In this document: in pieces, positions 18,753 to 27,513 of the stretch
How the letters are laid out: each line of letters begins with the position of its first letter
How positions within the stretch are numbered: position 1 is the stretch's first letter
Source: Planctomycetia bacterium
GTDB lineage: Bacteria; Planctomycetota; Planctomycetia; Pirellulales; PNKZ01
Reading direction: 5' to 3'
DNA: 64,000 nt
Assembly: GCA_021413845.1 (NCBI GenBank)
Contig: JAIOPP010000058.1
Span: 1 to 64,000 of the forward strand
The notes under the pieces: generated by a model
Databases searched by the model: none
Told to the model about the DNA's origin: nothing
Seen by the model: the letters and a program-made list of their open reading frames with translations, nothing else
Program-made: the position numbers and the translations under genes

Positions 18753-26714
<7,962 letters not shown>

Positions 26715-26913
26715 GGATCAACGACTTCGCGCGGCCCGCGGCGACTTGCGTCGCTTGAAACTTCGTGAGGTGGTTCTGCTTCACCAACTCGGCGACGAAC
26801 TCTTCGACGGTCGTCGGATGCGCTTTCGGCGGAACGAAGTTTTCCAGCTTCCCCTGGGCGATGATGCCCGAGTCGGCAAGCTGCTTCACGACGGTTTCCA
26901 ACGCCACGGCCAT
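26715..26913 (-). pseudogene. 5' fragment of the giant kinase gene, out of frame with the rest
   Basis: Starting at an ATG (MAVALETVVKQLADSGIIAQ), this encodes the N-terminal region typical of planctomycete kinases, ending in QATQVAAGRAKSLILGGY. In relatives GGY opens the glycine-rich loop of the kinase. Here the sequence jumps directly to the part beginning RFQREVEAAAKL in another frame, so roughly 40-45 codons and the frame are lost. Read onward in its own frame it gives non-kinase sequence for about 150 codons. The junction GCGGATAC fits both flanks, as expected for a short-homology deletion. Confidence 0.75.
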
Positions 26914-27105: not shown

Positions 27106-27513
27106 ATGCCCTGGCTCGAATGGTACGACTCGCTCGCCAAACCCAGCTGGACGCCCGCCCCGGCAACCATCGGGCTGATCTGGCAGATTCTCTACCCGAT
27201 CATTCTCGTCAGCTTCGGGTTCGTGTTCGTACAGGCGTTTCGTAGGAAATTGCCATGGCTCGTGGCTCTGCCGTTCGCCATCAACCTCGTTGCCAACCTG
27301 AGCTTCACGCCGATTCAGTTCGGTTTGCGGAACCTGCCGCTGGCGGCGGTGGACATCCTGATCGTGTTGGGAACGATCGTCTGGATGATGGCGGCGATCC
27401 GGCGGTACTATCGCTCGGTCGCCTTGGCGCAAGTGCCGTATTTGATTTGGGTTTCGCTTGCGACGGTGCTGCAACTGTCGATCACGGCGATGAATTGGGG
27501 GACGGCCCCTTGA
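27106..27513 (+). CDS. tspO: TspO/MBR family membrane protein
   Basis: A 135-residue membrane protein with the TspO pattern: LEWYDSLAKPSWTPAPATIG at the N terminus, five hydrophobic segments, and a C-terminal LIWVSLATVLQLSITAMNW. Bacterial TspO proteins bind porphyrins and respond to light or oxygen. The ATG at 27106 is preferred because it gives the family N terminus. The stop codon overlaps the TTG start of the UvsE gene, indicating translational coupling. It is slightly shorter than the typical 150-160 residues. Confidence 0.88.
   Translation: MPWLEWYDSLAKPSWTPAPATIGLIWQILYPIILVSFGFVFVQAFRRKLPWLVALPFAINLVANLSFTPIQFGLRNLPLAAVDILIVLGTIVWMMAAIRRYYRSVALAQVPYLIWVSLATVLQLSITAMNWGTAP

Follow-up and report, generated by a model that had tools for sequence, protein, structure and literature searches.

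Odelgard et al. (2024, PMC11032199) describe Planctomycetota kinases with accessory domains as products of lineage-specific paralog expansions. The gene considered here resembles these Ser/Thr kinases in its kinase domain, in having many paralogs in one genome and in carrying its accessory domains behind the kinase domain. It differs in that the N-lobe strands are absent and the gene is out of frame, and its accessory domains are of the LRR and FGE-sulfatase types, whereas the abstract of that paper stresses TPR and WD40 domains. The terms pseudogene, pseudokinase and truncat are absent from its main text. A literature search found no report on the kinase locus described below.

The window, i.e., the whole stretch of DNA that was analysed, is 64,000 nucleotides long and represents positions 1-64000 of a contig (C58) of 75,526 bases; the genome has 7.08 Mb in 167 contigs and is 99.59% complete. 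Bacterial pseudogenes can arise by a small out-of-frame deletion, and the window gene has the features of such cases, namely one deletion not divisible by three, a remainder that is still open and relatives with intact genes. Nothing notable sets it apart from them, and no repeat could be shown at the ends of its junction. We consider it probable that a small real deletion abolished the kinase function of a single copy in this large paralogous family.

A kinase gene in two frames

The gene is encoded on the minus strand. The N-terminal extension (MAVALETVVKQLADSG...RAKSLILGGY) occupies positions 26703-26913 with an ATG start at 26913, as judged from the reading frames and from paralog matches, and the same extension is present in two paralogs from the same genome, C15 (84% at the amino acid level) and C158 (81%). 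The extension frame runs from 26913 to a stop at 26260 and has 217 codons, 70 of them ahead of the break. The junction lies at 26702-26704 (minus strand), where 128 bases are absent relative to the homologs examined. The codons there (minus strand) are GGC GGA TAC, followed by a single G and then by CGG TTT CAG (RFQ...), and the kinase resumes at RFQREVEAAAKL in frame +1 relative to the extension frame. The preliminary description had reported that the frame breaks after SLILGGY and that kinase sequence continues in an adjacent frame, and the junction is found exactly so.

The second open frame (18753-26702, minus strand) encodes, by translation and Pfam, the kinase C-lobe, a membrane-like stretch judged by eye, a region of LRR similarity and three FGE-sulfatase domains. 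It opens past a TGA at 26720 and ends at 18753, giving 2,653 codons free of stops, and its first start in a mechanical ORF search is a TTG at 26714. The architecture is very long, with the three FGE-sulfatase domains (Pfam) alternating with LRR-like repeats that look similar to one another by eye.

As regards an active Hanks-type kinase, the C-lobe motifs are all present in the translation (HRDIKPANLL, ILDMGLA and MSPEQ, i.e., the HRD, DFG-like and APE-like motifs), and the glycine loop (GxGxxG) and VAIK lysine are missing, the 43-codon stretch that holds them being absent. No continuous frame leads from the family start to the C-lobe in the window gene. Because translation from the ATG at 26913 gives 70 residues of family sequence and then 147 that are out of register, the gene appears to be inactivated as a kinase.

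The missing stretch and its ends

DNA matches to the paralogs C15:24161 and C158:9064, each of which has the extension, the N-lobe and the C-lobe in a single frame, leave a gap of 128 bases in the window gene. The absent bases are those for the N-lobe strands with the glycine loop and the VAIK lysine. The Pfam Pkinase profile (PF00069) matches the window gene from profile position 43 and the C15 and C158 paralogs from position 1.

The same picture is obtained from a broader set of homologs. An adjoining N-lobe in frame was present at 78 of the 80 loci found by C-lobe similarity in genome contigs, although two of these 78 (L066 and L102) show the N-lobe end only, where the contig is cut; the remaining two loci (L081 and L107) start at a contig end or so close to one that no judgement can be made. 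Adding the loci of further genomes and removing duplicates gave 95 distinct C-lobes, three of which are cut by a contig end, so that 92 have an uncut upstream part. All 92 distinct homologs have 43 codons (129 bases) between the Tyr and the Arg-Phe, with the Tyr 44 residues ahead, and all 92 have the lysine of the VAIK position at the same place. The Tyr/Arg-Phe spacing is thus invariant across the homolog set, with the window gene as the exception. The paralog gap, this spacing and the Pfam start at position 43 agree with the earlier proposal of a deletion with frameshift that removed the glycine loop and the VAIK lysine. The size first suggested, 40-45 codons or 120-140 bases, was in the right range; it can now be given exactly as a spacing of 43 codons, or 129 bases, of which 128 are absent.

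Could a protein that lacks the N-lobe be made on purpose from a start downstream of the junction, combining the C-lobe, the membrane stretch and the sensor domains into a non-catalytic receptor or decoy? The 2,653 open codons and the conserved C-lobe would fit such a protein, but a recent event predicts the same openness, and the arrangement occurs in none of the 92 distinct homologs. The TTG at 26714 has a Shine-Dalgarno match of only 3/6, which is a weak test, since the family ATG at 26913 itself reaches 4/6; the listed in-frame starts behind the junction have at most 4/6. The analysis found no evidence for a functional protein of this kind, and we regard it as very improbable.

One detail of the preliminary description did not survive. 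It had proposed that an octamer, GCGGATAC, fits both sides of the junction, as in a deletion between short homologies, but the right side fails, and this 8-base microhomology was rejected from the right flanks of the 92 distinct homologs. Thr at position -1 or Asp at position -2 before the Arg-Phe was found in 0 of 100 rows and in 0 of the 92 distinct homologs (the 100 rows come from 101 loci, one of which was cut and dropped, and several rows represent one gene from two collections). The homologs mostly have (Ala)(Val/Ile/Leu)(Lys/Ala/Gln) before the Arg-Phe, and the letters ADT are the left flank translated in the other frame. In 39 of the 100 rows, G is the last base before the Arg codon, whereas the other 61 have a different base there. 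These 39 rows were scored on the assumption that the right flank supplied the junction base; the homolog's right flank then has no base in common with the left flank of the window gene in 36 of them and one base in three. A homology of a few bases may still have been present at the junction.

Event in the cell or in the assembly

The junction was also sought in relatives. A DNA query spanning it matched 38 of 40 relatives' genomes, and among the matches listed, no alignment from another genome extends more than nine bases beyond the junction on the far side. When the 23-base pattern of the junction was searched with a tolerance of three mismatches, it turned up in one of the four genomes of the genus, the own genome only, and was absent from the other three. 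In a further homolog search, none of the matches listed begins past residue 71. The preliminary description had named relatives sharing the junction as an observation that would speak against it, and no match listed from another genome carries the junction.

A positional ortholog was looked for by way of the divergent neighbour gene (27106-27513, plus strand), which by eye resembles a TspO/MBR-type membrane protein. Homologs of this neighbour are present in four of six relatives. In the three of them examined (G002, G003 and G006, the last with a flank of only ~2.6 kb upstream), no kinase is directly divergent from the neighbour's homolog; the fourth homolog (G004) is a weak match outside these three. 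In G003, a kinase lies ~4.5 kb from the neighbour-gene homolog. Hence, these three relatives supplied no positional ortholog by which the deletion could be dated.

At 61 C-lobe positions the other sequences are near-invariant (95% or more); the window gene departs from the consensus at none of these, and the same holds for 42 of the 95 other C-lobes, so that its unbroken C-lobe shows retained constraint and is nothing special. Pairwise dN/dS values between the window C-lobe, paralogs and homologs are low, at about 0.05 to 0.15 as taken from printed values, and we rejected them as a means of dating the deletion, because dS is mostly above 1 and the ratio says nothing about the time elapsed. With 2,653 codons free of stops and an intact C-lobe, the change is either recent or an artefact, the two options that had been proposed at the outset; an open frame and a conserved C-lobe are expected under a recent deletion and equally under an artefact.

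We hold the second option to be the less probable one. Here the gene of the organism would be intact, and the contig would either have been joined across a conserved paralog stretch or follow a chimeric read or one from a rare strain. The relatives' records (80 listed) are all planctomycete MAGs, which suggests that the own genome, being fragmented, is probably a MAG too. The family is large, with 63 match rows in the own genome for a whole-kinase query (several genes giving two rows), and kinase genes at the ends of contigs (C60 and C61) indicate that it is hard to assemble. Within the stretch missing from the window gene, exact words of 29 and 39 bases are common to pairs of own paralogs, and these could tangle an assembly with short k. 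In addition, the downstream part gives no sign of relaxed constraint, as seen from the 61 unbroken positions.

Several observations argue against an artefact. When the window gene was compared with 11 paralogs of its genome, the longest exact word in common was 36 bases long and was situated 96 bases into the C-lobe, and the 15 longest such words all leave the junction uncovered; a simple repeat collapse is therefore unlikely, and collapse by long identical paralogs was set aside on this word-length count, which refers to 11 own paralogs rather than to every kinase. The window contains no N bases. Finally, the window gene is the sole one of the 63 rows with an internal stop and the sole split pair with its halves in different frames; none of the other 62 rows has an internal stop. 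The weights given to a real deletion and to an artefact are judgements and were not computed.

Other members of the kinase family in this genome (G000) are incomplete in different ways. A lone N-lobe that has glycine loop and VAIK lysine but no recognised C-lobe is present inside a contig (C79:10333-10506, about 1346-1484 of locus L061), and a scrap of the N-terminal extension (C41:1281-1433; L016, L047) ends just before the N-lobe, in a frame of 88 codons that has no kinase domain. These two scraps show that copies do decay in this genome, which speaks for a real deletion. The C79 N-lobe was considered as the piece excised from the window gene and was rejected, since its left flank (KSRYLILGSY) differs; for the same reason, we take the fragment to be the remnant of a different copy. 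A distant kinase with 36% identity (C26:170173-170712; L062) matches only from residue 97, and its frame continues upstream; either this kinase has lost its N-lobe, or the N-lobe has diverged too far for the query to match it. Two contigs end inside kinase C-lobes (C60:2-232 and C61:38307-38462), which marks this paralogous family as a place where the assembly breaks.

Two of the edges of the C41 and C79 fragments lie about a dozen codons or less from the breakpoints of the window gene. One could imagine from the window gene, C79 and C41 that this kinase family loses and scatters its N-lobe as a segment and that some N-lobe-less products may be non-catalytic sensors, but we find this scarcely credible.

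A probable broken copy in a large kinase family

In the reading that we prefer, a single deletion of 128 bases would have removed the ATP-binding N-lobe strands and shifted the frame of one LRR/FGE-sulfatase kinase paralog. The normal start would no longer reach the C-lobe, leaving the gene inactive as a kinase, and the remainder would still be open since the event would be recent. Without these N-lobe strands, the kinase fold does not bind ATP in the known way. The window gene lacks the 128 bases, its frame is shifted, its junction is absent from the homologs examined, and its C-lobe is intact; what we infer beyond this is that the event took place in the cell rather than during assembly, and that the C-lobe is not produced as a protein.

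In conclusion, a broken copy in a large kinase family is ordinary and not something new. In genomes that are rich in kinase paralogs and split into many contigs, a break inside a domain needs read support before evolutionary claims are built on it. The result matters mainly for annotation, where the kinase gene at this locus is best labelled frameshifted or doubtful and should be counted neither as an active kinase nor as a natural design without an N-lobe.
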